A stretch of DNA of 64,000 nt from Asterella californica (taxonomy: Eukaryota > Streptophyta > Marchantiopsida > Marchantiales > Aytoniaceae): assembly GCA_036924285.1 (NCBI GenBank), contig JAYKYS010000008.1, positions 20,321,001 to 20,385,000 of the forward strand. The letters are read 5' to 3'. The notes under the pieces are model-generated. The model had not been told where the DNA came from. It did not search any database and worked only from the letters and a program-made list of their open reading frames with translations. The position numbers were made by a program, and so were the translations under genes. This document shows positions 6,727-53,912 of this stretch, in pieces (position 1 is the stretch's first letter; each line of letters starts with the position of its first letter).

Positions 6727-9099
6727 ATGATGAAGAAGATATCGAGATGCAGTTGGGGTAACCTTGCTTCAATTTGGCAAGCTGCTTTCCTTGTTGGGAT
6801 CTTGTGCACTCTACCGATGACTCAAGCTCAGGATAATGTTCATTCTCGATGTGACAATCTAGTGCCATCACCTTCCTTGACCCCGTTTGTAGAACCGTTG
6901 CCGATACCTTCGGTGATAGACATCTCCACAGGTGCTCAGCTCATTTTGGGTGCTTACAAGATTTCTCAGGTACGCTAATCCCAACCAGGTCCCTTCACGT
7001 ACGTACTTATTATTTGCCTATGCAGGAATTCTGGAATTCAGAGACTGAGGTCCATCCATGGCCAGTTGCATGTATATATGCTAAATCTAGCTAGTTTCAA
7101 GATTTATGCTGGAGTCAAATGTCATGACTACGCACGCGTGACACTCTTTGATTTGCTAGTCTGGTTAGCCTGAGCCACTAGCACTTCGGTTCTGGATCTC
7201 GATCTGGTCGAGTTGATGAGTTGCGACTGAAACCCATGCATTTCCAAGAGTTTCGATTTCACTTCGAGCTCGAGCAGAGTACCTTTAATTATTACTTGCA
7301 TATATGTGCTCTGATCCGAACTCAAGGGGTATAGTCTAGAACTACTGCTTCTTACATGTTCGTGGGGAAGTCGTGAACTCGACTTGAAGTTTAAATCTAT
7401 GAAGGGATCCGGAGTTATAATTAATTACTTGCTTGTATGCTTGCTTGCTTAATTAGCCATGTCCAGTAGCGAATTGGTTCTGGAACGCGCCTAACGATAA
7501 GGGTACGAATAAAAGCCCAGACGAGGGAGTAGGGAGGGAACTTACATACTGACCTGTGCTGCTGCTCTGTACTCGCAGAGTGTACATCCAGACCTCCCCA
7601 ACACAACGTTCTACGCCTATGGAACGAGTCAAGCCACAGCGACGGTACCAGGACCGACTCTCGAGGCTAGAAGGGGTGTCTCCTCGTTCGTTCGCTTCGA
7701 AAATCAGCTCACGGACCCGGAGCACATGTTTGTGGTCGACAGGACCATTCATGTAGCTAATCCACCCCAAGGAGGAGTGCCAATTATCACCCATCTTCAC
7801 GGAGCTGACGCGGAGAGCCAATATGATGGACATCCGGAGGCTTGGTACACGGCCCTTGGAGATACCGGATCTACTTTCGTGACCAGAAACAACACATACC
7901 CGAATCAGCAGCCTGCAAGTCTTCTGTGGTATCATGACCACACTATTGGAATGAGTCGGCTGAACGTGGCTGCGGGACTCGCGGGACTTTACGTAATACG
8001 AGGAGGAGAAGAAGAAGGTCTTGAAGATCTACCGCAAGGAGAGTACGAGGTTCCTCTCTTGATCCAGGACAAGCAATTCTTCCCGAATGGCTCCATCAAC
8101 TTCCCTGATATTGGTTTCAATCCGAGTGTCCACCCAAATTGGTGTCCAGATTATTTCGGTGATACGATTCTCGTCAATGGCAAAGCATGGCCGTACCTCA
8201 ACGTTACGAGAAACATTTACCGCTTCCGTATACTGAATGGGGCTAATGGACGAGTGTTCACTCTCTCCTTCAGCGACAGCCGAGTGAGTTTTCTTCAGAT
8301 CGGCACAGATGGTGGATACGTCTGGACTCCCTTTCGGCTGACAAATCTCACCATTCCTACAGCTTACCGAGTTGATGTTCTGGTGGATTTCAGCGAATTA
8401 GAAGTCGGGACCGTCGTGTACCTGAACAATTCAGCCTCAGCTCCATTCCCAGTTGGGAACGTGAACAACAGTGGCCCGAGCACCAGATATGTTATGCAGT
8501 TCAACGTCGTTGGAGGAGCGACTAATCAGACTGTTGTGGTGCCCGATTCCATCGCTTCACCTCCGGCCATTGACGCTTTGGCCAATAATGCTACATCCTA
8601 CAGAAATGTGTCCTTGCAACTCGTCTTCCCTCCAGATCTCACGTTTTTGCTGAACGGCCTTCACTGGACTGACAATGTGACTGAGACCCCTCAGCTGTAC
8701 ACGACAGAGGTTTGGGACATCACTCACCTGATCGCCAACAATGCTCACCCCATCCACATCCATCTTGTCAACTTCCTCGTAGTACATGAGCAAGCATTCA
8801 ACTTGACTCGACTGAATGCTGGTGGGTGCACACTTGAGCAGCCGTATCCACAGGCAGACAGCTGCTTCACGCAAGATCCACAGCCTGCAGATGCGGTTCA
8901 AACCGGTTGGAAAGACACTGTTCTGGTTCGCCCTGGGACGGTTCTGAGGTTGGTAGTCCAGATCTCACCCAGAGCTGGCGGCACATACCCCTTCGACCCC
9001 ACGACGGCTCCTGGGTACGTGTGGCACTGCCACATTCTGGATCACGAGGACTATGACATGATGAGGCCACTCCACTTTCAGCCTCCTCAGTTACTGTAG
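6727..9099 (+). CDS. LPR1/CotA-like secreted multicopper oxidase (copy A)
   Basis: Two-exon gene: exon 1 at 6727-6969, a GT-AG phase-0 intron, and exon 2 at 7579-9099, giving about 587 residues. Exon 1 encodes a signal peptide (hydrophobic AFLVGILC, likely cut after TQA). Exon 2 carries all copper ligand motifs of the family: HLHG, WYHDHTIG, HPIHIH and the C-terminal WHCHILDHEDYDMM, with a Met placed as the type-1 axial ligand. The core NPSVHPNWCPDYFGD..VNGKAWPYL is the signature of LPR1-like plant oxidases, which resemble bacterial CotA laccases. Arabidopsis LPR1 is a cell-wall ferroxidase in phosphate/iron sensing; the substrate here is inferred, not shown. Many N-x-S/T sites fit secretion. 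The ATG was chosen because it starts the signal peptide; the M at 7726 lies inside exon 2. No breaks are seen, so it is probably functional. Confidence 0.93.
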
Positions 9100-27159: not shown

Positions 27160-29693
27160 CTACAGTAACTGAGGAGGCTGAAAGTGGAGTGGCCTCATCA
27201 TATCATAGTCCTCGTGATCCAGAATGTGGCAGTGCCACACGTACCCAGGAGCCGTCGTGGGGTCGAACGGGTATGTGCCGCCAGCTCTGGGTGAGATCTG
27301 GACTACCAACCTCAGAACCGTCCCAGGGCGAACCAGAACAGTGTCTTTCCAACCGGTTTGAACCGCATCTGCAGGCTGTGGATCTTGCGTGAAGCAGCTG
27401 TCTGCCTGTGGATACGGCTGCTCAAGTGTGCACCCACCAGCATTCAGTCGAGTCAAGTTGAATGCTTGCTCATGTACTACGAGGAAGTTGACAAGATGGA
27501 TGTGGATGGGGTGAGCATTGTTGGCGATCAGGTGAGTGATGTCCCAAACCTCTGTCGTGTACAGCTGAGGGGTCTCAGTCACATTGTCAGTCCAGTGAAG
27601 GCCGTTCAGCAAAAACGTGAGATCTGGAGGGAAGACGAGTTGCAAGGACACGTTTCTGTAGGATGTAGCATTATTGGCCAAAGCATCAATTGCTGGAGGT
27701 GAAGCGATGGAATCGGGCACCACAACAGTCTGATTAGTCGCTCCTCCAACGACGTTGAACTGCATAACATATCTGGTGCTCGGGCCACTGTTGTTCACGT
27801 TCCCAACTGGGAATGGAGCTGAGGCTGAATTGTTCAGGTACACGACGGTCCCGACTTCTAATTCGCTGAAATCCACCAGAACATCAACTCGGTAAGCTGT
27901 AGGAATGGTGAGATTTGTCAGCCGAAAGGGAGTCCAGACGTATCCACCATCTGTACCGATCTGAAGAAAACTCACTCGACTGTCGCTGAAGGAGAGAGTG
28001 AACACTCGTCCATTAGCCCCATTCAATATACGGAAGCGGTATATGTTCCTCGTAACGTTGAGGTACGGCCATGCTTTACCGTTGACGAGAATCGTATCAC
28101 CAAAATAATCTGGACACCAATTTGGGTGAACACTCGGATTGAAACCAATATCCGGGAAGTTGATGGAGCCATTGGGGAAGAACTGCTTGTCCTGGATCAG
28201 GAGTGGAATCTCGTATTCTCCTTGCGGCAGATTTTCAAGACCTTCTTCTTCTCCTCCTCGTATTATGTAAAGTCCGGCGAGTCCCGCAGCCACGTTCAGC
28301 CGACTCATTCCGATAGTGTGGTCATGATACCACAGAAGACTTGCAGGCTGCTGATTCGGGTATGTGTTGTTTCTGGTCACGAAAGTAGATCCCGTATCCC
28401 CAAGGGCAGTGTACCAAGCCTCCGGATGTCCATCATATTGGCTCTCCGCGTCAGCTCCGTGAAGATGGGTGATAATTGGCACTCCTCCTTGGGGTGGATT
28501 AGCTACATGAATGGTCCTGTCGACCACAAACATGTGCTCCGGGTCCGTGAGCTGATTTTCGAAGCGAACGAACGAGGAGACACCCCTTCTAGCCTCGAGA
28601 GTCGGTCCTGGTACCGTCGCTGTGGCTTGACTCGTTCCATAGGCGTAGAACGTTGTGTTGGGGAGATCTGGATGTACACTCTGCGAGTACAGGCCAGCAG
28701 CGCAGGTCAGTATGTAGTTCCCTCCCTACTCATTGCACTTGCTGTATGGGCTTTCATTGGTACCGTTACGTTAGGTCTGTACCAGGACTAATTAAGCAAG
28801 CATGCAAGCAAGTACTTAATTATAACTCCATAGGCGTAGAACGTTGTGTTGGGGAGATCTGGATGTACACTCTGCGAGTACAGGCCAGCAGCGCAGGTCA
28901 GTATGTAGTTCCCTCCCTACTCATTGCACTTGCTGTATGGGCTTTCATTGGTACCGTTACGTTAGGTCTGTACCAGGACTAATTAAGCAAGCATGCAAGC
29001 AAGTACTTAATTATAACTCCGGATCCCTTCACTTCAAGTCGAGCTCACGACTTCCACGATGCAGTGGTTCTAGACTATACCCGTTGATCATGAGTTCGGA
29101 TCAGAGCACATATGCAACTAACTAGTTAAAGGTGCACTGCTCGAAGTGAAATAGAAGCTCTTGGAAATGCATGGATTTCAGTCGCAACTCATCAACTGAA
29201 CACGTACTCGACCAGATCGAGTTCCAGAACCGAGTCGAAGTGTACTGGCTCAGGCAAATTATAACCAGAATAGCAATCAAAGAGTGTCACGCATGCTCAT
29301 TCATGACATTTGGACTACTCAAGCATAATCTTGAAACTAGCTAGGTTAATCATATATACATGCAAATGGATGGACCTCAGTCTCTGCAGAGTTCCTGCAT
29401 GGGCAAATAATAAGTACGTAGGTGAAGGGATCTGGTTGGGATCAGCATACCTGAGAAATCTTGTAAGCACCCAAAATGAGCTGAGCACCTGTGGAAATGT
29501 CTATCACCGAAGGTATCGGCAACGGTTCCACAAACGGGGTCAAGGTAGGTGATGGCACTAGATTGTCACATCGAGAATGAACATTATCCTGAGCTTGAGT
29601 CATCGGTAGAGTGCACAAGATCCCAACAAGGAAAGCAGATTGCCAGATTGAAACAAGGGTACCCCAACTGCATCTCGATATCTTCTCCATCAT
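27160..29693 (-). CDS. LPR1/CotA-like secreted multicopper oxidase (copy B)
   Basis: Same two-exon structure as copy A: exon 1 at 29693-29451 (signal peptide, donor GTATGC) and exon 2 at 28680-27160. All four copper motifs (HLHG, WYHDHTIG, HPIHIH, HCHILDHEDYDMM) are intact. Relative to copy A there are four changes in the 81-residue exon 1 part beyond the MMEK start shared with copy C. There are three conservative ones in exon 2 (two V/I, one D/N). Its intron carries a 191-bp tandem duplication that copies the acceptor and the first 45 nt of exon 2. Full-length protein requires skipping the upstream duplicate acceptor. Probable secreted oxidase, perhaps ferroxidase by family; function inferred. 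Confidence 0.9.
28636..29017 (-). repeat. 191-bp tandem duplication spanning the intron 3' end and start of exon 2
   Basis: Two essentially identical 191-bp units, 28636-28826 and 28827-29017. Each contains the CTCGCAG acceptor and the first 45 coding nt of exon 2. On the transcribed strand the extra copy comes first, with its acceptor at 28872. Splicing there and reading on meets a stop within about 18 codons past the duplicated coding part. Confidence 0.95.
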
Positions 29694-31489: not shown

Positions 31490-33400
31490 GCTGTCCAAAC
31501 ATGTTGCCCACTATTTTCTAAATTCAAGACCGAAGCTTTTTGTTTCGAAGGCATTACATTCTTGCCCAAACATGCTTTCCACTATTTCTTAAACTCGAGA
31601 GGAAGCTTTTTTTCTAAGGCATTAGATATAACAAGGTGTCACATTCTAGCAGTATTCGAGTGTGGAGAAGCTGCCCAAACATGCTGTCCACTATTTTCTA
31701 AATTTGAGGGAAAACTTTTTGTTTCTAAGACATTAGAGGAAACATGCTGCTCACTATTTTGTGAAGTGAAGCTTTTTGTTTCTAAGGCATTAGAGGTAAC
31801 AAGCACCCTAAGCCAGCATACTGCACAAGAAAGCTCCCCAAACATGCTGCCCACTATTTCCTAAATTCTGAAGAGAAGCTTTTTGTTTCTAAGGCATTAG
31901 AGCTAACAAGCACCCTAAGCTGGCAGCCGCACAGTAAAGCACCATGCTGTTCACTATTTCCTAAATTGGATGAGAAGCTTTTTGTTTCTAAGACTTTAGA
32001 GCTAACAAGCACCCTAAACCAACAGCCGCACAGTAAGGCATCAAGTATCATAAGCCTGCAAAGCTTTTTGTTTCTAAGGCATTAAGCTAACAAACATCCT
32101 AAGCCGGCAGTCGCACAATAAGGCACCATGCTTCCCATTATTTCTTAAATTCACGACCTCACAATAAGACATCAAATACACTAAGTCTGCTTGCGGCTTA
32201 GAACTAACAAGCACCCAAAGCCGACCGTCGCACAGTAGTGCACCAAGTACCCTAAGCCTGCGATTGCACAATAAGACACCAAGTACCCTAAGCCTGCGAT
32301 CGCACAATAAGACGCCAAGTACACTAAGATAGTCGCACAATAACGCACCAAGTATCCTAAGCCTGCGACTGCACAGTAAAAGCACCAAGTACCATAAGCC
32401 TGCAACCACACAGTAAAGCACCAACTATCTTAAGCTTGTGACCGCAGAGTAAGACACCAATGTCTTAGAGGTAACAAGTACCTTAAGCCGATAGCCGCAC
32501 AGTAAGCCATCAAGTATTTTAAGCCTGCGGAGCTTTTTGTTTCTAAGACAAAGATAACAAGTACCCTAAGCCAGCATGCTGCTCACTGTTTCCTAAATTC
32601 GAGGAGAAACTTTTTGTTTCTAAGGTATTAGAGCTAACAAACACCCTAAGCCGGCAGCCGCACAATAAGGCACCATGCTGCCCACTATTTTCTAAATTCA
32701 CGACCTCACAGTACGACATCAAATACACTAAGTCTGTGTGCGGCTTAGAGCTAACAAGCAGCCTAAGCCGGCTGCCGCACAGTAATGCACCAAGTACCTT
32801 AAGGTACCAAGTACACTAAGGCAACCGCACAGTATTGCACCAAGTATCTTAAGCCTGAGACCGCACAGTAAAGCACCAAGTACCCTAAGCCTGCAACCGC
32901 ACAGTAAAGCACCAAGTATCCTAAGCTTGCGACCGCACAGTAAGGCACCAATGTCTTGGAGGTAACAAGTACCTTAAGTCATCATGATGCTCAATATTTC
33001 TTAAATTCGAGAGAAGCTTTTTGTTTCTAAGACATTAGAGCTAACAAGCACCCTAAGCCAGCAGCCGCACAGTAAGGCACCATGTTGCCTACTATTGCCT
33101 AAATTCGAGGAGAAGCTTTTTGTTTCTAAGCTAATAGAGCTAACAAGCACCTTAAACCGGCAGCCGTACAATAATGCACGAGGTATCCTAAGCCTGTGAT
33201 CGCAAAGTAAGGCACTCTAAGCCAACCGCACAGTAAGGCACCATGCTGCCCACTATTTCCTGAATTCGAGGAGAATCTTTTTGTTTCTAAGACTTTAGAG
33301 CTAACAAGCAGCCTAAGCCGGCAGCTGCAAAGTAATGCACCAGCTAACAAGCACCTCAAGCCAGCAGCCGCACTGTAATGCAACCAAGTACCCTAAGCCT
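31490..33400. repeat. Satellite block 1, ~99-bp degenerate unit
   Basis: Repeats of a roughly 99-bp unit with the core GAAGCTTTTTGTTTCTAAG, then ATTAGAGCTAACAAGCACC, CTAAGCC.GCAGCCGCACAG and ACTATTTCCTAAATTC. Neighbouring GAAGCTT cores at 31875 and 31974 are 99 bp apart. Many copies are truncated or merged. Confidence 0.88.
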
Positions 33401-35040
33401 GCGATCGCGCAGTAAGACAGCAAGTACACTAAGGCAGCCGCACAATAATGCACCAACTATCCTAAGCCTGCGAATGCACATAAGGCACCAAGTACACTAA
33501 GGCAGCCGTATAGTAATGCACCAAGTATCATAAGCATGTGATCGTACAGTAAGGCACCAAGTACATTAAGACAGCCGCACAGTAATGCACCAAGTACCTT
33601 AAGCTTGCAACCGCACGCACCAAGTACCCTAAGGTTACGATCGCATAGTAAGACACCAAGTACACTAAGACAGTCACACAGTAAGGCACCAAGTACACTA
33701 AGTTTACGTCGCACGCACGCATCAAGTACCCTAAGGTTACGATCGTCTAGTAAGACACCAAGTACACTAAGACAGTCACACAGTCACACAGTAAGACACC
33801 AAGTACACTAAGTCTGCACGCACCAAGTACCCTATGGTTACGATCGCTTAGTAAGACATCAAGTACACTAAGACAGTCACACAGTAAGGCACCAAGTACA
33901 CTAAGTCTGCGATCGCACGCACGCACCAAGTACCCTAAGGTTACGATAGCATAGTAAGACATCAAGTACACTAAGACAGTCACACAGTAAGGCACCAAGT
34001 ACACTAAGTCTGCGGTTACGATCGCATAGTAAGACACCAAGTACACTAAGACAGTCACACAGTAAGCCAGTAAGACACCAAGCACACTAAGACAGTCACA
34101 CAATAAAGCACCAAGTACACTAAGTCTGCGATTACGATCGCATAGTAAGACACCAAGTACACTAAGACAGTCACACAGTAAGCTAGTAAGACACCAAGCA
34201 CACTAAGACAGTCACACAATAAAGCACCAAGTACACTAAGTCTGCGATTACGATCGCATAGTAAGACACCAAGTACACTAAGACAGTCACACAGTAAGGC
34301 ACCAAGTACACTAAATCTGCGGTTACGATCGCATAGTAAGACACCGAGTACACTAAGACAGTTACACAGTAAGGCACCAAGTACACTAAGTCTGCGATCG
34401 CACGCACGCACCAAGTACCCTAAGGTTACGATAGCATAGTAAGACACCAAGTACACTGAGACAGTCACACAGTAAGACACCGAGTGCACTAAGTCTGCGG
34501 TTACGATCGCATAGTAAGACACCAAGTACACTGAGACCGTCACACAGTAAGGCACCAAGTACACTAAGTCTGCGGTTACGATCGCATAGTAAGACATCAA
34601 GTACACTAAGACAATTACACAGTAAGGCACCAAGTACACTAAGACAGTCACATAGTGTGCGGTTACGATCGCATAGTAAGACACCAAGTACACTAAGACA
34701 GTTACACAGTAAGGCACCAAGTACACTAAGTCTGCGATCGCACGCATGCACCAAGTACCCTAAGGTTACAATAGCATAGTAAGACACCAAGTACACTGAG
34801 ACAGTCACACAGTAAGACACCATGTACACTAAGTCTGCGGTTACGATCGCATAGTAAGACACCAAGTACACTGAGACAGTCACACAGTAAGGCACCATGT
34901 ACACTAAGTCTGCGGTTACGATCGCATAGTAAGACACCAAGTACACTAAGACAGTCACATAGTAAAGCAGTAAGACACCAAGTACAATGAGACAGTAACA
35001 CAATAACACACCAAGTACATTAAGTCTGCGATCGCACGCA
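33401..35040. repeat. Satellite block 2, ~75-bp unit of two ~37-bp subunits
   Basis: More regular array of CACAGTAAGGCACCAAGTAC / ACTAAGTCTGCG and GATCGCATAGTAAGACACCA subunits. The GATCGCATAG core recurs at about 75-bp steps (for example 34252 and 34327). It blends into block 1 through shared CCTAAGCCTGCGA-type sequence, so the two are one diverging family. Long minus-strand frames arise because 75 is a multiple of three. Confidence 0.9.
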
Positions 35041-36352: not shown

Positions 36353-36356
36353 TTAA

Positions 36357-36377
36357 ACCACAGGTGGGGGTATATAA
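36357..36377 (+). repeat. Left terminal inverted repeat of the TTAA element
   Basis: 21 bp starting ACCACAGGTGG, preceded by TTAA. It includes TATATAA, placed well for transcription into the plus-strand gene. Confidence 0.87.
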
Positions 36378-36935
36378 ACCCCCCTCGCACGCGGCAGCGC
36401 CTTTCATGTCATTGTAGCGTACGTCTGGCACCGAGAGCCGGAGAGAGCCGGAGCGAAGAGAGCACTTTTCCGACGATTCTAGGGTTATTGACTTCTTGGA
36501 GCGGTGGGGTCGGCTGAGTGTGAGTGTGGCGTCAGACGGCTTCGTCTTTTCTTGTGTTTGTTTACTCTCGAAGGTGGAGACGGCTCGCTATGTGCAAGGG
36601 TTGAAGACTCTCGGAGTTGTAGGGTCGGCTGAGTGCGAGTGTGGTCGCATCATAACTTTCGTTTTGCCAGTCAACATCATCATATCGTTGGATTCTAGTT
36701 TGGCCGCTGGTGACATTCTGTATGCAGCAGCTTTTCGTTTGGGAAGTATCGAAACTCAACGTGGGCTTGAGATTCTCTTTCGTGGTCTCTGGAGTCGCTT
36801 TACACTAGTGTTCACATGTTTGGGTTCAAATCTATAGTGGCTCTCAACTCTGTAGCACTAATGTTTTTCTGGACGGCGGCTCAATCAGGTATCGCGAACT
36901 ACTGTCTGTACTTTTCGGCGAGGTCATCATATCAG

Positions 36936-37290
36936 ATTTCTTGGTAGCACCTGCTTCGCTGACCTTTCTGGCTCCTATCCGGCGAATTTCAACAGTGGTC
37001 TTTTCCATCGTTGGCTGTAGTTTTTACAGTGCCGTCGTCTTATTGCTCTTGTTCTTTGTACTGATAACTTTAGCGGTGGCTCATTTCTGGTTTACAGAGC
37101 TACTATCTGTATCTGCAAGGCTTAGTCGCCGTTTCCTGTTTCTTGGTCCAACTCGCTTCGATGATCTTTCTGGTAGCACCTGCTTCGCTGACCTTTCTTG
37201 GCTTCGGTGATCTTTCTGGCTTCGCTGACCTTTCTTGGCTTCGGTGATCTTTCTGGCTTCGGTGACCTTTCTGACGACGTTTCGCTTGGT
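36936..37290 (+). repeat. Short tandem repeats in the leader of the accessory gene
   Basis: Repeated CTTCGCTGACCTTTCT / CTTCGGTGATCTTTCTGG units of about 16-36 bp, clustered at 37160-37280, with an earlier copy near 36945 (TAGCACCTGCTTCGCTGACC shared). They lie upstream of the ATG at 37360 and probably belong to the leader. Confidence 0.7.
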
Positions 37291-37359
37291 ACTCGCTCCG
37301 GTTATCTTTCTTGCACCTCTTGCTGTTCTTGGTATATTTTGGGCTCGCTGAGAGGAGCT

Positions 37360-37930
37360 ATGGGTCCTAGGTATAACCAACGCCATTCTTGGGACGAAGA
37401 TCGAGAATATTGGAAGGTTTATGGGGAAACTTCAAAAGATAGTTTCTGTATTACTGACGATGAATTGAAAGAGTGTTTTCCAGTCTTTCATGAAGCTTGT
37501 ACTCAAGTGTCGAAGATGGAACAGTTTAGTAGTATGTGGGACAGTCCTGATCTTTTGGAACACTCTCTTCTTGGTTGTGCTTCTGTTTCTTATTCAGAAT
37601 CTAGTTGTTCAAAACAGCGATTTCAGGTCTATCGAGCTGTGGCACTTGTTTTGGGTTTTGTTGAACGTACACAACTTCCAGGTGTTTTAGAAGCTGCAGT
37701 GAAATCCACATGGAGCACTCCAGGCGAAATATTTGTTGGGTATCAAGAGTAAGTGCATTCTTTAGTTCTGCATCTGCAGATATTGTGATTTTGCATCGTT
37801 TCGAAAAAACAGTTTGAGCATTTGCATTGCATCCCTTCGGGGTCCAAGGGAGTGTATCCCTTGCGGTGAAGTTTGCCACAGGGGCATTTATTGGGTTCAA
37901 CTCCCAAGTCTTCAAACTGAAATACTATAG
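37360..37930 (+). CDS. Accessory protein of the TTAA element, unknown function
   Basis: Proposed two-exon gene: ATG at 37360, exon 1 to 37748 with a strong GTAAGT donor, and exon 2 at 37813-37930 after an ...AACAG acceptor, ending TAG. It gives about 168 residues. Exon 1 encodes a charged, probably folded region (DEDREYWKVYGETSKDSF, ITDDELKECFPVFHEACTQV, QRFQVYRAVALVLGFVERTQ). Exon 2 would add a Cys/His-rich end (CIPCGEVCHRG) that could bind metal. I do not recognise a family. Its position opposite and convergent to the transposase inside one pair of TIRs suggests a second transposon protein. An earlier in-frame start at 37198 runs through the leader repeats and is less likely. The exon 2 join is inferred from splice signals only. 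Confidence 0.5.
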
Positions 37931-38045
37931 AAGTTTAGCACTCAAACAAACAGAAGATGGTATCATGAAGCGTAGCTCTACCTCCCTGAGACCACTCAAT
38001 GCTGGAAACCGAGAGCTAAAACCAAGTAAATTTTGTCTAAACAAG

Positions 38046-38580
38046 TTTTGAACCTGTTTCGAAAGTTTCGAGAGCCAAAACCAAGTCTACTTTGTAAAAA
38101 CAAGTTTTGAATCTGTTTCGAAAATTTCCAGCGAGCCAAAACCTGCAAACTTTACACAAACAGGTTTTGAACCTGTTTTGAAAAAAAACAGGTTTACAGA
38201 AACCTGTTTCCAAACGGAACAGGTTTACAGAAACCTGTTTATGAACGAAACAGGTTTATAGAAAACCTGTTTCGTTTGAACACAGGTTTCTATACCTGTT
38301 TCAGAGAAACAGGTTTATAGAAAACCTGTTTAGTTTGAACACAGGTTTCTATACCTGTTTCGTCTGAAAACAGGTTTATAGAAAACCTGTTTATCACGAA
38401 AACCTGTTGAGAACAGGTTTATAGAAAACCTGTTTACCACGAAAACCTGTTGAGAACAGGTTTCTAGAACCTGTTTTGTTACAAGTTTTTTAAAAATTAT
38501 GTTTTCAATCTAATCTAAATTATCTAATCTACCTGTTTCTAAGCTTTCTATAACCTGTTTATAAGCGGAACAGGTTTTTA
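38046..38580. repeat. Inverted-heptamer array (ACCTGTT / AACAGGT)
   Basis: About two dozen copies of ACCTGTT or its complement in some 535 bp, often alternating in orientation and spaced to form small hairpins, for example AACAGGTTTATAGAAAACC with TGTT following. It lies between the accessory gene and the transposase 3' end. No coding frame is seen. It could be clustered binding sites for a transposon protein, or a self-amplifying simple repeat. Confidence 0.85.
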
Positions 38581-39077
38581 AAATTTTTCGAAACAAGTAC
38601 TTTATCATTGTTTTGAAACCTGACGATATAGTATAGTATAAAACACTTTTTAGAATATGTTTATTTATTTATTTAAATATATAAATAGTCTAAAGTATCT
38701 ATGGAAACAGATATCTGGAGAAAATAATGCATGACGAGTAGAGGTCCTCTAACGCCTAAGTTCTAAAGCAACATGCAAACTGAATATCATTTGAAATGAA
38801 CAATGAGGAATTTATGAGAAAATAAACAAATAAATATTATATCAAATAGTAGTTCACAACATCCCATATGGAGCGTATATAGAGCGTACGGAGAGCATAC
38901 AATGCAAATCTACTCGTCGAACTTCCAAACTCACACGGATGCGAATACAACTGGTTCCTCCTTGTCAAATGATGAGATCTGATGAAAGATGAGAAACACA
39001 ATTTAGAGGACGCTCAATCACAACCATGGCTGTTATACGCAATAAATATCATATCAACATGAAAACGAAACACATAC
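38581..39077. other. AT-rich spacer inside the TTAA element
   Basis: Non-coding, between the heptamer array and the transposase stop codon. Probably the 3' region of one or both convergent transcripts. A short ATATGGAGCGTATATAGAGC repeat lies near 38870. Confidence 0.5.
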
Positions 39078-41523
39078 TTACCAGTCCCGCAGAGTCCGCT
39101 CACCGAACAGTCGTTCCCTCAACGATGTCTTCCAAGCCGTTGTCCGCGGAGGCAACACTCGAGAAGTACCTGTGAGATGTCGCACTGAAGTGTGTTGTGG
39201 TCGACGTTGGAATATTTTGACAGGCTCACGAGTGATATTCTCATTCCAATCCATAGCACATGCCGCAAGACGAGCCTCATGAGTCCGAGGGAAGTGAATC
39301 CTCTTTGTCGCAAACTTGTTTATAACTGAATTGAACGTCTCTGACATATAGTTCTCCCTAGCTCGCGTGTAAAAACGCATCTTTGTATGCGTGATAGCCT
39401 TGCCAAGAAACTCCACCATTGCTCGGTGTGTAGGTGAACCTACAATGTCAACAGTTACAAGGGATCTTGAAGGACTGTATATCCAAATCTATGACCAATA
39501 TAATAATGGGTTGTAAGCTTACCTCGTTCGTAATACTTGTCAGATGCTGGCCTGTTCAGATCAGGGACACTACAGCATGGCCGCGAGACTCCAGTCAGAT
39601 GTTGAAGCCTCAGACATGTATCGTGCTCTCCTGCCCAATGGTCTGCAGCGTTCTTGATATCAAGACACAATGTCGATGCATCATCTTCTTCTTGCATATA
39701 TCGCCCATCGATACCCACTGTTCTCCTTGCATTCAATTGACAACAAGTGTAAATCCATCCCTTCAACTTGTCCGCAATTCCATGTTCTTGAAGCTCAGGA
39801 TACATGAAGCGTCTGGATCTTACTGGGTCTCCTTCCTCCAACCCTCTCAACTGGGCAACTCGTCGAACAAGCACGGGCTTGTTGCCAACAATGGAAACTC
39901 CTTGTCCACGAAGCCAAGTGACAAGCTGCCGCTTGGTCAAAAGCTCGAGATCAGTGGTCACCTCAGCTTCCTCCACACCCGCTGGATTGCGCTTCTTCAT
40001 TTGCAAGTCAACCAAGAACTTCTTGATCACGTTCTTGCACTTGTGCCACAAATCTTTTTGTGACACAATACCGTGACGATGCAATATTGCATCTACCGAT
40101 GACTTGTCATCGTGTACCACCTCGTCCGGCACAAGACCTCGTGCAATCAACCGTTGTATGCCTACCTCGAATGCACGATCCTCGATCAACCAAGAATTGT
40201 TACCGGTCTCAATGCGTGTCATGTTCACCATCTCTATCACCTTACCCGAATCTGAGTCGATGAACGAACATGTGCCATTGTAACCATTACGAGTAGAATC
40301 GTACCTAAGGTCGGCATACACGACGAAGTTGCCTACAACCAATCCACTCATAGATGATAAAATAAATATATAATTCAAGCATTCAGCAAATGTCCACAAT
40401 GTACAAAAGTTTAGAGCTAGACGAATCCAAAAACACGCACCTCCGACATTGACCTCGTTCAAGTTTGGAAAATGCTTGGCTTGCACTTCAGACTGCACCT
40501 CATCCTTCAACATTCCCCATCTATCCAATGTCGCCTCTACCCAACCTATCTCGCGGTGCTTCCCTGACTGGAACTGGAAAAAATGATTTCTAGATATCGG
40601 AGCTAACCCACCCTCTCTAAACACAGAATCTAGTTGCTCAAAACCCAAACCCGCTGATAATCCTGCATGATAAAAGCGATGGGTAACATCTGGGACGCTA
40701 TTGTATATCTCCATCTCAGTAGACCTCCATCCGTATGTGTGCCTATCAGGACATATTAACTTCAACGACCAACTCTGATGGATCGCTGAAATAATAGGTG
40801 GTAAAAAGTAGTGCTCACATCTGTGGTGAGGACATCGCACTCGAAAAGTCTGAAAGAACTCACGTAATCTAGGATGCGCTACAAATCCGTAAAGAGGGAG
40901 CACTGACTCCGCGACGTGAGCTTGGGTTGACGATTGATCATGTGGATTATCTATCGGAATCTGATCATCTAAAGGCTGTGAGATTTGAGAGTCTGGAACC
41001 GCAACATGATGAACCTCGGCATGAATAACATCCTATACATGCGATACATGCGATATCATACATATGACTTGTGATACGCATACAATACAACAAAACATGT
41101 AACCATGACATAACTCGAATATAAAACCAGTTGCACAAGCATATTCCAGTACATTAGAATGAAGTGTACCTGATCGTCATGAGTTTTGACACCAAGAGCA
41201 CGCAGCACATCTAGATCAGCGAATAAATGATCTGCAACAATCCCTGCACTTCCTCTCTCCAGAACACCCTCCTCTGGGATTACATCTGGGTCTACGGGTA
41301 CTTGCTCAGCATCTCTAGCCATCTGGTCTATCCGCTGCTCACAAGTGGCAAACAGAAAGCGAAACACAGCAGCATGTCCGGCTCCTGGCCCCAAAAGTCT
41401 CATGATCTGTACATACCTAGGTAACAATGACTCGGGGACCCTCACCATACCTGTCGGGACCTCCGGACATCCTCTAGGTGCGTGTCGGTCTCCAGAACGT
41501 CTAGGATATACTCTAGGTGGCAT
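39078..41523 (-). CDS. DDE transposase with embedded SAP domain (Kolobok-like)
   Basis: Four exons on the minus strand: 41523-41170, 41032-40441, 40332-39523 and 39439-39078. All have GT-AG introns and matching phases, giving 705 residues with no break. The likely catalytic core begins VVYADLRYDSTRNGY (D323). VPDEVVHDDKSS supplies the second acid (D390 or D391), followed by DLWHKCKNVIKKF. A SAP-type motif (LTKRQLVTWLRGQG...GNKPVLVRRV, residues ~444-477) sits in the insertion before the last acid, probably E619 in ENYMSETFNSVINKF. The region ends with KRIHFPRTHEARLAACAMDW and NEN. Proteins of this shape occur in Kolobok-like elements. The SAP domain probably contacts DNA. The complete frame, with TIRs and TTAA around it, argues for recent activity. 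The ATG was chosen as the first in exon 1. Confidence 0.82.
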
Positions 41524-42550
41524 GGATATAATAAATATGCTCTAAAGCCGTCCACAAGTCTATCCGTCCGGAGGTCCGTCAAAATCATCAGCTGTAACCA
41601 AGCTTCGTCTGTTACTAAAATAAACAATAGTGGAGAAAATTAAACTGATCTACACTGTTCTACTACAAAAAAAATATACTAAATGAGTAGAAAATATATT
41701 AGAGAATCAAATCTCAGTGAGTAGAAAAAAGAAACAAGAGAGAAAAAGAAAAAGAAAGATAAAAACAAATAAACAACAGCAACAACTAATCAGTTAGATG
41801 TACTCAAATTATCTAACAGAGAATAATACCAAGTATGAAAAATTTCAAGAGAAAAAAACGATAGTGAAGAGCATAGCAAGAGGAAGAAACAAGAGTGAAG
41901 AGCACAAGTGAGTGAAAGAAAAAAAAGCCAAGGCAAAAAAGGAAGGAAGGGGGCTTTACCCCTCCGCAGTCCCTCCAGCCAAACGTGTAAGGCAGGAGGA
42001 ACCCTCCTCCTGTTGTTTGTTTCGGCTGGCCTGACAGCCAGCCGAAACAAAGGCAGTCGGCTGGCTGTTAGGCCAGCCGACTTTCATGACCGGATTTACA
42101 TTTCCGGTAAGTCGGAAATGTAAATCCGGCAGGCCCCGCGGCTCATTTGACGTGATTATGGCCGGTTGATGCGGCCGTTGTGCGGCCGACTACAGAGTTT
42201 AAAATTCAATTCCGGGAAAAATGTTCTAATATCAAATTTTGAGTTCTTCTACCAAGCAGTTACTTGTTAGGGGAACTATTCAAATTTCGAATTTTTAGAA
42301 TATTCTTTTTCTGAGGTTCTCCTTACTTTCATCTTTGGATGATTGTTCTGAAGTCGTCCGATGTCAGATCGTGAAGATCTGCGGCTCATTTTCAAGCTAT
42401 GGAAAAGATGGTCATTTTGGTACGTAGATCAACAACAGGCGGTAACAAATGAGCACAAGCCAGCTGGGCGCAAGTCGGGTGGGAGAGCCCGCCGAGGTCC
42501 TGTTTTTTTAAACACTGAGTAAAATGATCAGGGGTGGGATATCCCACCAC
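41524..42550. other. Transposase 5' region in the TTAA element
   Basis: Non-coding leader/promoter side of the minus-strand transposase. It includes A-rich and AG-rich tracts (41640-41940), the hairpin cluster at 42019-42129, and a GTGGGATATCCCAC palindrome near 42534, close to the right TIR. Confidence 0.55.
42019..42129. repeat. Three consecutive perfect hairpins
   Basis: Stem 1: GTTTCGGCTGGC at 42019-42030 pairs with 42037-42048 (12 bp, 6-nt loop). Stem 2: GTCGGCTGGC at 42056-42065 pairs with 42072-42081 (10 bp). Stem 3: CCGGATTTACATTTCCG at 42090-42106 pairs with 42113-42129 (17 bp, 6-nt loop). Stems 1 and 2 share the GGCTGGC core. All lie about 450 bp inside the right TIR. Confidence 0.95.
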
Positions 42551-42571
42551 TAATATACCGCCACCTGTGGT
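42551..42571 (-). repeat. Right terminal inverted repeat of the TTAA element
   Basis: Inverted match to 36357-36377 (19 of 21), followed by TTAA at 42572-42575. Confidence 0.87.
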
Positions 42572-42752
42572 TTAAGGATATTATGTTGCCGATCATCTCC
42601 TGACCTTCTCTCTATCGCGCCTGCCAGTTTCTCTGCACCGTCCAAAGAGTCTTAATTGCATTCGTCCAGGCTTTTCTGTTTTCTTGACTCGCGTCCTCTT
42701 TCAGACCCGCCAATAACATCTTGCTCACCTCGGTCATAATCTGACGGCTGGA

Positions 42753-47240: not shown

Positions 47241-49559
47241 GTGAACAGATACTGCAAGTTACCTTTAGACATAATAGTGGCGCAGTTCTTTCTTGAGAGT
47301 CTACAGCTTAGAGCAATGAAGAGACAGAAGTGTCTTTTCGATTCAGGTTTCACTTCCGAGAAGGTAACTGTACAGTTACCATCCATCGAGGTAGATACTG
47401 CAAGCTTAGATGAGAGCGTTAGTACAGAACGTTTCACTGCCGCGGAGAAGACAGAAATCTTACAGAATTGTAAGACATGGAATGATAAATGGCTCCTTGA
47501 TTTTGACTGGATCCGCTTCGATCCTTCCATTGGCAGAGTATTTTGTAAACTCTGCGAGAAAGGTAGGGGGCGAGGGCACTTTGCTACGAGAGGGTCTAGA
47601 AATGTGCGGACTTCTGCTTTCCATGACCATGCTGCCTCAAATGAGCATAAGGCAATTCTTACTGTAAAATTACTGGGTGCAAAGACCATAGAGAAAGCCA
47701 TGACAACCGCGAGGGAGACATGCGACAAAGCAGTTCTAACATTATTTCGTGCTGCTTACTTTATTGGTAAGGAAGGTATCTCCTTCTCGAAGTTTCCGAA
47801 GCTATGTAAGATGCTTCATTTTGTTACCGGCGACATAACCACTTCCATGTATCAAGACGACAAGAGTTGTGCAGATATTATCTTCTGTATAAGTCAGATA
47901 CTGCACAAGCGTGTCTTGGACAAGGTAAGGAAGTCTCCATTTTTTGGGATAATGGTGGATGAATCGACTGACGTCTCTGTGACCGGTCATCTAGTGGTCT
48001 TTGCTACCTATTTGGACGAAGGTGTAGTGAAATCATCTTTTCTTGGGTTGTTGCAAATGCGGTTGAAAGACTCTGAAGCTATCACTTCTGCTGTAACTCG
48101 TCTTGTTTCTGACTGTAACTTAGACTCTAATCGTTTTATGGGATTCGGTTCGGATGGTGCGAGCACCATGATCGGTGTTCGAAATGGAGTCGCTGCGCGT
48201 TTAAAACGAACGGTTAATCCTCACATGCTTTCTGTGCATTGTATTGCACATCGAACTAACTTGGCGAGTCTTGCCGCAGCTAAAAGTCCTGGCTGCAAAG
48301 AGATTAGTGACAATGTCGATAGTATCCTGAATACGCTTGCTTCTTATTTCCAGAGCAGCTCCAAGCGTAAGGCAAGTCTGTCGTCGTTGCAGGAATCATT
48401 GAATGATGCACGAAAGTGCATGAAGCGATACTTGAAGATCCGATGGTTAAGCCGTTGGCAAGCTGTTACCAGTGTCTGTGATAGTTACGAGTCAGTCTTG
48501 GTTTACTTTCGTGATGTTGCTAAATCGGATGACTGTGTGGCTTCGTCTTTGTTCCAGAAGCTTGGTTCTTTCAAAATGTTGTATATATTTTACTACTTAG
48601 CTGATATTCTAGGTAGCTTGGCGAGATTGAACAAAGCTTTCCAGAGTCTATCCATAGACTGTTCGAATGTAGGTCCTCTAGTGAGGACTACGATAACTGA
48701 GATTGGTGTTAACTTCTTAGTGGAGACCACAGATCTCAACGCCTGTCTTCTGAACGAGGACACAGGATATCACATTCTGCCAGAGTATGGTCCTCCAGGT
48801 GGGTATCTGAAGCGCCTTCAGTCTGAACTAAGAGGTAAAATGTTTCACTCAGTGACTTTGGAGAGAGATCGCATTGGCAGAGATTTGGAGAGTGCTTTAC
48901 TTTTCCAGAAAGAGTTTTCTCAAGCTGTGTGCTCTGCTTTGGAGGAGAGGTTCGAGGATAATTCTGTCATTAGCTGTTTCAAGGTTTTGAACCCTCTTCT
49001 GATGCCTTCAACTGCGCTAGCGGTAAGAGAATGGGGTGCGAGAGAGATAGAGCAGCTTTGTGACTTTTTTGGACAAGATCTGCCATTCGGTTCGGGTAGT
49101 ATTCAAAAAGCCTTGATTTCTTCCTCTGCTATTCGAGGTGAATTTAGATCCTTTAAGATTCACTGCAGATCAGAATGGGCAGAGAAGCGGTTTAACGACT
49201 TGTGGTTTATGTTGTCTGGTGACGAAGTGTACGAAGGTCAGTATCCGAATTTGTTTACTTTGGCCAATATCGCACGCATTCAGTGTGTTTCCACCTCCGT
49301 CTGCGAACGAGCTTTTTCTATCCAGAATGCTATCAAGACGAAGTTTAGAAATAAACTTCAAACCAAACATCTTGAAGCTACAATGCGAGTGAGTTTACAA
49401 GGTATTGGAGGAGACGAAGATCTTCTTTCGGAAGCTATTTCTCTCTGGAGGAACAGCGTGGAGTATAGGCACCTTTACGCACATCCTGCTGTGCACTTGA
49501 GTTCGAGTTCTTCTGATCGGGCTTCATGCAGTGTTAGTGTTACTACTCCACTGTCTTGA
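47241..49559 (+). CDS. hAT transposase (ZNF862/DUF4371-like group)
   Basis: Single uninterrupted frame of 772 residues. A BED/TTF-like zinc finger lies near residues 100-136 (FCKLC with C102/C105; HDHAASNEH with H130/H136). The catalytic region opens with FGIMVDESTDVSVTGH (D240). GFGSDGAST gives the second acid (D305), followed by the CxxH motif HCIAH (C334, H337). The C-terminal dimerisation domain has LANIARIQCVSTSVCERAFS with the conserved E, then KTKFRNKLQTKHLEATMRV. Its length is close to known proteins of this group. A second ATG at 47316 is also possible as the start. It performs cut-and-paste transposition in the nucleus. With intact ends and the recent-looking 8-bp duplication, the element may be active, and it is the likely driver of the MITE at 4799. 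Confidence 0.93.
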   Translation: MNRYCKLPLDIIVAQFFLESLQLRAMKRQKCLFDSGFTSEKVTVQLPSIEVDTASLDESVSTERFTAAEKTEILQNCKTWNDKWLLDFDWIRFDPSIGRVFCKLCEKGRGRGHFATRGSRNVRTSAFHDHAASNEHKAILTVKLLGAKTIEKAMTTARETCDKAVLTLFRAAYFIGKEGISFSKFPKLCKMLHFVTGDITTSMYQDDKSCADIIFCISQILHKRVLDKVRKSPFFGIMVDESTDVSVTGHLVVFATYLDEGVVKSSFLGLLQMRLKDSEAITSAVTRLVSDCNLDSNRFMGFGSDGASTMIGVRNGVAARLKRTVNPHMLSVHCIAHRTNLASLAAAKSPGCKEISDNVDSILNTLASYFQSSSKRKASLSSLQESLNDARKCMKRYLKIRWLSRWQAVTSVCDSYESVLVYFRDVAKSDDCVASSLFQKLGSFKMLYIFYYLADILGSLARLNKAFQSLSIDCSNVGPLVRTTITEIGVNFLVETTDLNACLLNEDTGYHILPEYGPPGGYLKRLQSELRGKMFHSVTLERDRIGRDLESALLFQKEFSQAVCSALEERFEDNSVISCFKVLNPLLMPSTALAVREWGAREIEQLCDFFGQDLPFGSGSIQKALISSSAIRGEFRSFKIHCRSEWAEKRFNDLWFMLSGDEVYEGQYPNLFTLANIARIQCVSTSVCERAFSIQNAIKTKFRNKLQTKHLEATMRVSLQGIGGDEDLLSEAISLWRNSVEYRHLYAHPAVHLSSSSSDRASCSVSVTTPLS

Positions 49560-49660: not shown

Positions 49661-49709
49661 ATCTCTTGCCCCAGTTGGGGGGTTCTCGGGTTCAACTCCC
49701 GCAAGAGAC
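49661..49709 (+). other. tRNA-like fold lacking an anticodon arm
   Basis: TCTCTTGC (49662-49669) can pair with GCAAGAGA (49701-49708). Inside are a CCCC-AGTT-GGGG hairpin and a CGGG-TTCAACT-CCCG hairpin whose loop fits the tRNA T-loop/B-box rule. This looks like a tRNA with the anticodon arm deleted, or the head of a tRNA-derived SINE. It is not a normal tRNA gene. Confidence 0.5.
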
Positions 49710-51540: not shown

Positions 51541-53912
51541 ATGATGGAGAAGATATCGAGATGCAGTTGGGGTAACCTTGCTTCAATTTGGCAAGCTGCT
51601 TTCCTTGTTGGGATCTTGTGCACTCTACCGATGACTCAAGCTCAGGATAATGTTCATTCTCGATGTGACAATCTAGTGCCATCACCTTCCTTGACCCCGT
51701 TTGTAGAACCGTTGCCGATACCTTCGGTGATAGACATCTCCACAGGTGCTCAGCTCATTTTGGGTGCTTACAAGATTTCTCAGGTACGCTAATCCCAACC
51801 AGGTCCCTTCACGTACGTACTTATTATTTGCCCATGCAGGAATTCTGCAGAGACTGAGGTCCATCCAGTTGCATGTATATATGCTAAATCTAGCTAGTTT
51901 CAAGATTTATGCTGGAGTCAAATGTCATGACTACGCACGCGTGACACTCTTTGATTGCTAGTGGCTCAGGCTTAGTCTAGCCTGAGCCACTAGCACTTCG
52001 GTTCTGGATCTCGATCTGGTCGAGTTGATGAGTTGCGACTGAAACCCATGCATTTCCAAGAGTTTCGATTTCACTTCGAGCTCGAGCAGAGTACCTTTAA
52101 TTATTACTTGCATATTATGTGCTCTGATCCGAACTCAAGGGGTATAGTCTAGAACTACTGCTTCTTATATGTTCGTGGGGAAGTCGTGAACTCGACTTGA
52201 AGTTTAAATCTATGAAGGGATCCGGAGTTATAATTAATTACTTGCTTGTATGCTTGCTTGCTTAATTAGCCATGTCCAGTAGCGAATTGGTTCTGGTACG
52301 CGCCGAACGATAAGGGTACGAATAAAAGCCCAGACGAGGGAGTAGGGAGGGAACTTACATACTGACCTGTGCTGCTGCTCTGTACTCGCAGAGTGTACAT
52401 CCAGACCTCCCCAACACAACGTTCTACGCCTATGGAACGAGTCAAGCCACAGCGACGGTACCAGGACCGACTCTCGAGGCTAGAAGGGGTGTCTCCTCGT
52501 TCGTTCGCTTCGAAAATCAGCTCACGGACCCGGAGCACATGTTTGTGGTCGACAGGACCATTCATGTAGCTAATCCACCCCAAGGAGGAGTGCCAATTAT
52601 CACCCATCTTCACGGAGCTGACGCGGAGAGCCAATATGATGGACATCCGGAGGCATGGTACACGGCCCTTGGGGATACCGGATCTACTTTCGTGACCAGA
52701 AACAACACATACCCGAATCAGCAGCCTGCAAGTCTCCTGTGGTATCATGACCACACTATTGGAATGAGTCGGCTGAACGTGGCTGCGGGACTCGCGGGAC
52801 TTTACGTAATACGAGGAGGAGAAGAAGAAGGTCTTGAAGATCTACCGCAAGGAGAGTACGAGGTTCCTCTCTTGATCCAGGACAAGCAATTCTTCCCGAA
52901 TGGCTCCATCAACTTCCCTGATATTGGTTTCAATCCGAGTGTCCACCCAAATTGGTGTCCAGATTATTTCGGTGATACGATTCTCGTCAATGGCAAAGCA
53001 TGGCCGTACCTCAACGTTACGAGAAACATTTACCGCTTCCGTATACTGAATGGGGCTAATGGACGAGTGTTCACTCTCTCCTTCAGCGACAGCCGAGTGA
53101 GTTTTCTTCAGATCGGCACAGATGGTGGATACGTCTGGACTCCCTTTCGGCTGACAAATCTCACCATTCCTACAGCTTACCGAGTTGATGTTCTGGTGGA
53201 TTTCAGCGAATTAGAAGTCGGGACCGTCGTGTACCTGAACAATTCAGCCTCAGCTCCATTCCCAGTTGGGAACGTGAACAACAGTGGCCCGAGCACCAGA
53301 TATGTTATGCAGTTCAACGTCGTTGGAGGAGCGACTAATCAGACTGTTGTGGTGCCCGATTCCATCGCTTCACCTCCGGCCATTGACGCTTTGGCCAATA
53401 ATGCTACATCCTACAGAAATGTGTCCTTGCAACTCGTCTTCCCTCCAGATCTCACGTTTTTGCTGAACGGCCTTCACTGGACTGACAATGTGACTGAGAC
53501 CCCTCAGCTGTACACGACAGAGGTTTGGGACATCACTCACCTGATCGCCAACAATGCTCACCCCATCCACATCCATCTTGTCAACTTCCTCGTAGTACAT
53601 GAGCAAGCATTCAACTTGACTCGACTGAATGCTGGTGGGTGCACACTTGAGCAGCCGTATCCACAGGCAGACAGCTGCTTCACGCAAGATCCACAGCCTG
53701 CAGATGCGGTTCAAACCGGTTGGAAAGACACTGTTCTGGTTCGCCCTGGGACGGTTCTGAGGTTGGTAGTCCAGATCTCACCCAGAGCTGGCGGCACATA
53801 CCCCTTCGACCCCACGACGGCTCCTGGGTACGTGTGGCACTGCCACATTCTGGATCACGAGGACTATGACATGATGAGGCCACTCCACTTTCAGCCTCCT
53901 CAGTTACTGTAG
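51541..53912 (+). CDS. LPR1/CotA-like secreted multicopper oxidase (copy C)
   Basis: Exon 1 at 51541-51783 and exon 2 at 52392-53912, same splice sites and about 587 residues as copy A. The protein differs from copy A by K to E at residue 3 (MMEK); the rest of the coding sequence reads the same. All copper ligand motifs and the signal peptide are intact. The role is inferred from LPR1-type ferroxidases and CotA-type laccases: oxidation of a small reductant or ferrous iron outside the cell with oxygen reduced to water. The hAT element inserted about 1.3 kb upstream of the ATG in this copy only, which could alter its expression. Confidence 0.93.

Follow-up and report, generated by a model that had tools for sequence, protein, structure and literature searches.

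Background

The Kol0 group of Kolobok transposons encodes a transposase together with a partner protein, KolX (Kojima and Bao 2022, PMC9587614). In the parts of that paper considered here, Kol0 elements with KolX are described from animals, while the plants named as carrying Kolobok are chlorophytes and rhodophytes. The same parts report that a few piggyBac families carry a protein resembling the C-terminus of KolX without most of its cysteines, and that the DxxH motif is also present in MuDR. The ballast domain of P2X7 had been reported as undetected in plants and was regarded as an innovation of animals, according to the relevant passage of Rump et al. 2020 (PMC7016195). In the plant literature, the passages retrieved name Kolobok solely in repeat counts, and that found for Kolobok and the transposable elements of Marchantia polymorpha was unrelated. 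Kolobok with KolX, and the ballast domain with P2X7 and a transposon, were found together by literature search in one and the same publication only, and no paper was found combining Kolobok with 'Mutator-like transposase'.

Here these systems are compared with a locus in a 64,000-nucleotide stretch of the genome of the liverwort Asterella californica, referred to as the window (Table 1). Taken as a whole, the locus is read with good confidence as a complete cut-and-paste DNA transposon, probably autonomous and belonging to a large Kolobok-like, TTAA-targeting liverwort lineage.

Table 1. Features of the transposon and of the neighbouring hAT locus, in window coordinates
Feature	Position	Strand	Remarks
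Left TTAA target-site copy	36353..36356	.	Adjoins left inverted end
Left terminal inverted repeat	36357..36377	+	19/21 matches with right end
TATA-like box TATATAAA in left end	36371..36378	+	Points toward gene 2
Gene 2	37360..37752	+	130-aa single-exon protein; C-terminal part KolX/P2X7-ballast-like by profile
tRNA-like RNA element 3' of gene 2	37867..37914	+	Predicted outer stem of 7 bp, one arm, linker of 4 nt and a T-arm whose loop is TTCAACT
Tandem and inverted AACCTGTTT-type repeats	38009..38476	.	Between the two convergent genes
Gene 1 exon 4	39078..39439	-	Transposase C-terminus; candidate catalytic E614/E619
Gene 1 exon 3	39523..40332	-	Candidate catalytic D323, D391; DLWH motif, SAP insert, H-H-C-C stretch
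Gene 1 exon 2	40441..41032	-	N-terminal part; zinc-ribbon-like C/H stretch, judged by eye
Gene 1 exon 1	41170..41523	-	Predicted start codon at 41523
TATA-like box TATATTA in right end	42557-42551	-	Points toward gene 1
Right terminal inverted repeat	42551..42571	-	19/21 matches with left end; includes TATA-like box
Right TTAA target-site copy	42572..42575	.	Adjoins right inverted end
Unrelated hAT transposase frame	47241-49559		hAT domains matched
Second tRNA-like element	49662..49708	+	Similar architecture; outside the transposon, ~100 nt past the stop of the hAT frame

Results and discussion

Ends and genomic copies of the element

The original prediction placed an element with 21-bp inverted ends and flanking TTAA at this locus, and both the pairing and the flanks are as it described. 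The 516.7-Mb host genome contains 26 instances of the end pattern AACCACAGGTGGNGGTATA, nine of them left-type and 17 right-type ends, and none of the reversed pattern used as a control; the inverted ends are therefore not a product of chance. TTAA adjoins 25 of these 26 ends, and is present on both sides of all seven two-ended copies, including that at 36357-42571 in the window. This interval is a repeated DNA transposon, of which further copies exist. Neither outcome named beforehand as counting against the prediction, namely ends occurring nowhere else combined with a profile match to an unrelated family, or two ends of unrelated sequence, was observed. Searches of the genome gave 143 transposase matches and 154 gene-2 matches, and where the two neighbour one another the pair is convergent in 30 of 31 cases. 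An inward-facing TATA-like box is found in each end, as had been proposed; since the search pattern already required GGTATA, only the bases beyond it count as evidence for such boxes.

The transposase

Gene 1 is assembled from four exons, and its three introns (137, 108 and 83 nt) are all bounded by GT and AG. The 705-residue transposase foreseen at this locus is recovered, but is unbroken only once these exons are spliced, as the longest single reading frame, which crosses intron 2, has 482 aa. The transposase has relatives in Riccia and Klebsormidium. Aligned relatives continue without insertion across two of the three exon junctions, the first junction sitting in a poorly aligned part of the protein. 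D323, D391, the DLWH motif at 409-412 (DxxH) and E614/E619 are conserved in the transposase alignment, and either of the last two could be the catalytic E. A SAP domain is inserted before this last catalytic-type residue. The pattern HWAxxHxxC, followed by a later C, is present in all nine rows of the alignment that cover it, the remaining three of the 12 being gapped there; this stretch between DxxH and the last E appears zinc-finger-like. Alignment searches of viral contigs found relatives neither of the transposase nor of ballast proteins.

The second gene

The existence of a second, convergent gene is borne out: relatives of gene 2 end at the same position, with TAA, TGA or TAG. Finite dN/dS values in the tested pairs range from 0.12 to 0.31, and all but one of the six finite dS values exceed 1, near saturation; as judged from these ratios, gene 2 is shown to be under purifying selection in the pairs tested. 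An alternative two-exon model of 168 aa (splice 37749/37813) was rejected because relatives stop at the same place and share no common donor. With this rejected version as the query, a word-based search of a protein database gave no homologue at E<=10 among 19 candidates. Comparison with PDB sequences returned three weak matches, all to one RING protein (E 0.099-0.36) and lying partly in the rejected second exon, and a single-sequence structure model (pLDDT 43) was too poor for use.

In a profile comparison with hhalign, gene 2 matches the core at the C-terminal end of the animal KolX/P2X7-ballast proteins (P 2.3e-7; 49 columns), and shuffled controls score far below this match. The P2X7 ballast, NANOR and PF20478 proteins, as presented in part of the account of Rump et al. 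(PMC7016195), have the same pattern in this core and likewise end just beyond it; gene 2 differs from them in lacking most of the zinc cysteines and in escaping the Pfam model. These comparisons support, without proving, the reading of gene 2 as a divergent KolX/P2X7-ballast relative that retains the C-terminal core but has lost most of the zinc-binding cysteines. A plant KolX-like gene with a ballast core would be new.

A tRNA-like element behind gene 2

Across 13 hand-aligned copies of the putative tRNA-like element, 149 of 156 cells pair, and several standard pair types are seen in 10 of the 12 pairs; in the window copy a single pair of the outer stem is mismatched. Re-dealing the 3' strands 1000 times gave at most 133 paired cells. 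A scan with fixed geometry and free stem sequences found 10 sites, all 3' of gene 2, against one in the reversed sequence. The covarying structure, and the similar one behind the unrelated hAT transposase, seem to be new. There is some likeness to mascRNA and menRNA, which are described as tRNA-like RNAs that RNase P releases from longer transcripts, in that a tRNA-like element would lie inside a longer, here inferred, transcript. The liverwort elements differ in having one arm between the outer stem and the T-arm and in their position behind transposon genes.

Relationship to Kolobok and alternative interpretations

The element has in common with Kol0, as far as the latter is characterised in the parts of PMC9587614 considered, the TTAA duplication, a DDE transposase in which DxxH and a stretch rich in H and C precede the last E, as well as a second gene, which is KolX in Kol0 and related to KolX/P2X7 ballast by profile here. 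It differs in residing in a liverwort rather than an animal host, in a KolX-like protein without most cysteines, and in the addition of a SAP insert and a tRNA-like RNA element. Since Kol0 itself consists of a transposase and KolX, possession of two genes is no peculiarity among such elements; of the suggestion that a two-gene plant member would be exceptional, the part that stands is the presence of a KolX-like gene in a plant. The 4-bp TTAA duplication of Kolobok is found; judged by sequence, a duplication of TA within a TTAA target would look the same. Kolobok termini have been described as 5'-RR...YY-3', whereas this element ends in 5'-AC (TTAA/ACC), a point against formal membership, and would have AA ends only if the duplication were TA. 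The predicted Kolobok-like, two-gene TTAA transposon with a D-D-E transposase is upheld by the TTAA copies, the conserved D/D/E residues and DxxH, and the Kolobok-like assignment is supported as a likeness to described Kolobok traits.

Structure comparison of a modelled relative of the transposase (mean pLDDT 69) suggests IS256, hAT and P element transposases as fold neighbours in Foldseek, with IS256 and hAT recurring in a second fold search and P element in Foldseek only; the element is set apart from all three by its TTAA duplication, SAP insert and second gene. Neither piggyBac nor MuDR is among the fold matches listed for this model, an absence that excludes neither. A piggyBac-type transposon would share the TTAA target, and the few piggyBac families mentioned above (PMC9587614) even have a comparable cysteine-poor, KolX-like protein, yet no Pfam piggyBac family is hit at E<=1 by any of the 12 rows of the transposase alignment, and such an origin is very hard to credit. 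Assignment to MULE/Mutator could be argued from the DxxH common to MuDR (partial account in PMC9587614) and from PF20700 'Mutator-like transposase', which matches two of the 12 rows (best E 4.4e-6), the window protein not among them; no MULE domain is detected in the 12 rows (Pfam, E<=1). The assignment is improbable: 'Mutator-like' is a label only, and the duplication is TTAA, at 4 bp. MULEs make target duplications longer than this.

Within the Kolobok-like reading, the nature of gene 2 and of the RNA element can each be questioned. Gene 2 could be an unrelated small transposon protein that has converged on a short motif, as the alignment spans only 49 columns, the cysteines are mostly gone, and PF20478 misses gene 2 and six relatives at the family cut-off, its best match in the same genome (E 1.48) being at another place. 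The reverse test is also weak: the animal profile gives the window gene 2 only 1.1 bits, and the best relatives (L057, L055 and L060) 10.6-11.4 against 7.1 for the best decoy. Convergence is nonetheless unlikely in view of the profile match and its far lower shuffled controls, of the termination of both proteins just past the common core, and of the arrangement common to both, in which each accompanies a DxxH transposase as the second gene of a TTAA transposon (PMC9587614). A somewhat doubtful possibility is that the tRNA-like element is the remnant of a tRNA-derived SINE or of a polymerase III box B, and not a maintained structure. The box-B-like GGTTCAACTCC, the lack of a match in ARAGORN and Rfam, the partly weak model matches across subgroups, and the folding of the window segment alone (z -1.22; 25 of 200 shuffles as good) would all fit a remnant, but the excess of paired cells over every re-dealing, the covariation, and the clustering of the geometry hits at one place argue for maintenance.

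Proposed mechanism

On the interpretation of a Kolobok-like transposon with a KolX relative, the transposase would bind the CCACAGGTGG ends, excise the element and reinsert it at TTAA, with the gene 2 protein as a putative accessory factor of transposition. The TATA-like boxes are candidate promoters that may drive both genes inward from the ends. The tRNA-like element could give the gene 2 transcript a processed 3' end, which would limit the formation of double-stranded RNA with the convergent gene 1.

Conclusions

It is conceivable, and only a little short of an even call, that KolX, from which the P2X7 ballast stems, was already associated with TTAA transposases in the plant-animal ancestor, or has crossed between the two, and that unrelated transposons of this plant, the present lineage and a hAT, share a one-armed tRNA-like element as a new type of transposon 3' end. 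A plant relative of KolX with many diverged copies, those tested being under purifying selection, would open both the ancestral form and its part in transposition to testing, and the more than 100 matched copies in a single genome are natural variants from which the needed parts may be found. With a similar tRNA-like element lying behind each of two unrelated transposases, it may be asked whether transposons here use the tRNA-processing machinery for the 3' ends of their RNAs. Finally, such a plant relative would bear on how an ion channel came to incorporate a transposon gene.

Element structure and gene content

The original prediction of a transposon with 21-base inverted ends flanked by TTAA is borne out: 19 positions are identical between the two terminal inverted repeats. 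Gene 2, on the plus strand near the left end, faces gene 1, the transposase, which runs on the minus strand from the right end, so the predicted second convergent gene is also recovered. The proposed unbroken frame of 705 residues holds once three predicted GT-AG introns are spliced out, but the longest unspliced frame is only 482 aa and takes in intron 2. Ten of the eleven relatives of the transposase come from Riccia sorocarpa, which makes a liverwort host likely. Relatives carry no insertion at junctions 2 and 3, while junction 1 falls within a badly aligned region. Structural modelling of a relative shows a transposase-like fold. Gene 2 encodes 130 aa and is read as a single exon because its relatives end at the same position with differing stop codons.

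Immediately inside the right end lies a near-palindrome beginning GTGGTGGGATATCCCACC, the GATATC core of which recurs in 15 of 17 right-type ends (those on the gene 1 side) and is possibly a second binding site. Elsewhere in the window, the three multicopper-oxidase frames are almost identical by eye, span approximately 46 kb and include one inverted copy, an arrangement that looks like a recent segmental duplication.

Features of the window, with positions in window coordinates
Feature	Position	Strand	Remarks
Transposon	36357-42571		Between two TTAA sites
tRNA-like RNA element	37867-37914		3' of gene 2 stop; predicted pairing
Near-palindrome	42531-42550	-	Inside right end
hAT-type transposase open frame	47241-49559	+	772 aa; zf-C17orf113, DUF4371 and hAT dimerisation matches
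Second tRNA-like structure	49662-49708	+	About 100 nt 3' of hAT frame's stop
Multicopper-oxidase frame	7726-9099	+	457 aa
Multicopper-oxidase frame	27160-28533	-	457 aa
Multicopper-oxidase frame	52539-53912	+	457 aa
Tandem arrays	33364-35030		Extended; AGTAAGACACCAAGTACACTAAG-type units
Repeated 191-base unit	28636-29020		Two repeats, 100% matches

Distribution of the family in the host genome

Further copies with the same ends, expected if this is a genuine transposon family, were found. The end pattern AACCACAGGTGGNGGTATA occurs 26 times (9 left-type, on the gene 2 side, and 17 right-type) in the 516.7 Mb, 773-contig host genome, and not at all in the reversed control; the bases directly outside are TTAA in 25 cases and ATAA in one, with differing sequence beyond. 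Twenty stretches were retrieved, 12 of them through left-end matches and 8 at left-type ends that the pattern search had located. Both genes are present in 15, convergent in every case; in L046 an additional transposase piece lies beyond gene 2. L043 and L052 contain gene 2 only, and neither gene was matched in L041, L042 or L051. The last has two ends at 923 and 1483, 561 bp apart with TTAA next to each, and resembles a short copy from a candidate non-autonomous family. Leaving aside L051, and L037 with its unrecognised left end, the seven examined copies with two recognised ends, the window's included, all have TTAA on both sides and differing flanks.

Of the copies, L035 comes closest, with 93% identity along its full length. 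In tblastn, gene 1 of L035-L039 contains stops or frame shifts, some possibly within introns, and the window copy is the only one of these six with an unbroken spliced frame. A 672-aa frame is found with close scores at six places, which suggests later activity in the wider family.

Searching the genome with exon 3 gave at least 143 matches of 71-100% identity (143 of 1908 candidates scored), and gene 2 gave at least 154 (150 of 1010 scored). Among the matches listed, 147 gene 2 places were compared with 143 transposase places, omitting three second pieces of gene 2 places already counted; four of the 154 lay outside this set. Thirty-one pairs fall within 8 kb, compared with a mean of 0.9 and a maximum of 5 under random placement, in which contig extents were approximated by the largest match coordinate. 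Thirty are convergent, spaced 1333-2837 bases apart; in the remaining pair both genes lie on one strand, separated by about 7.7 kb. This excess of convergent neighbours implies that the convergent two-gene set has been maintained family-wide.

A tRNA-like RNA element downstream of gene 2

The RNA element could fold into an outer stem of 7 bp, a single arm, a linker of 4 nt and a 5-bp T-arm with the loop TTCAACT; the T-arm passes without a gap into the outer stem's 3' strand. It is present in 15 of 18 gene 2-bearing copies (17 retrieved plus the window); L037 has lost the T-arm, and the motif was not matched in L043 or L052, although a model built from L047-L050 and L054 matched L052 weakly (rough E 0.042). 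In 13 hand-aligned copies, omitting L038 and L039 as near-duplicates of L035, pairing is standard in 149 of 156 cells, a figure biased upwards by the choice of alignment blocks by eye for complementarity. Re-dealing the 3' strands 1000 times gave a mean of 89 paired cells and a maximum of 133. More than a single pair type occurs at 10 of the 12 paired positions.

Scanning the 20 copies and the window for TTC[AG]A with a closing G-C pair and fixed geometry, leaving stem sequences free, returned 10 sites, all at the element's place, against one in reversed sequence; the window copy is missed owing to one mismatch in the outer stem. By the tool's rough E-values, the L047-L050/L054 model detects L053 (1.8e-5) and, in the window's subgroup, at best the T-arm (about 0.04-0.05 and weaker). 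The window-subgroup model detects L044 (1.6e-11) and matches the other subgroup weakly (L049 0.042, others at least 0.67). Folded to minimum energy, the segment from the window is unremarkable (z -1.22; 25 of 200 shuffles equally good), and neither Rfam nor ARAGORN gave a match.

Unexpectedly, the L047-L050/L054 model also matched the site behind the hAT frame (rough E 4.7e-5; 0.0043 with the window-subgroup model), where the architecture is similar and the stem sequences differ. A 21-bp hairpin lies 5' of this structure.

Probable relationship of gene 2 to KolX

Estimates of dN/dS were finite in six of ten gene 2 pairs (0.26, 0.31, 0.22, 0.12, 0.22 and 0.18), dS being saturated in the other four; on these estimates, purifying selection is shown in the tested pairs.

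As Kojima and Bao (PMC9587614) describe KolX, this second protein of Kol0 transposons is a P2X7-ballast protein. Following that description, the ballast, an animal ion-channel C-terminal domain (PF20478), was compared with gene 2 by eye and was then the single family put to the profile test. In hhalign, a profile of 14 gene 2 proteins (13 retained) matched 62 aligned ballast-like animal proteins, drawn from 120 listed of 138, with a probability of 93.5% (P 2.3e-7, score 50.0, 49 columns). Column shuffles scored at most 25.7 on the gene 2 side (200) and 22.5 on the animal side (100), the reversed alignment scored 20.5, and the probability stays at 90-94% when any of three row sets is removed. 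The gene 2 profile exceeds 5 bits for 53 of the 62 animal proteins and one of 682 decoys. The reverse test was weaker, the animal profile giving 10.6-11.4 bits for the family members L057, L055 and L060, and 1.1 bits for the window's gene 2, below the best decoy at 7.1. PF20478 itself matched neither gene 2 nor six relatives, and found nothing above its cut-off in the host genome. L055 and L057 carry LPSC and LPAC where the animal proteins have a PSC motif. A relationship between gene 2 and the animal KolX/P2X7 ballast proteins is likely but not proven.

Classification and mode of action

The earlier Kolobok-like reading stands with respect to a Kol0-type mode of action, but not formal membership: under the TTAA reading the ends depart from the 5'-RR rule of Kolobok, and the element is not filed as a formal member of that group. 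In such a mode of action, the transposase would recognise the ends, excise the element and insert it at TTAA, while the TATA-like boxes would start both transcripts. The KolX-like gene 2 protein would assist transposition, and the tRNA-like element may make the 3' end of the gene 2 transcript, which would block run-through into the opposing gene.
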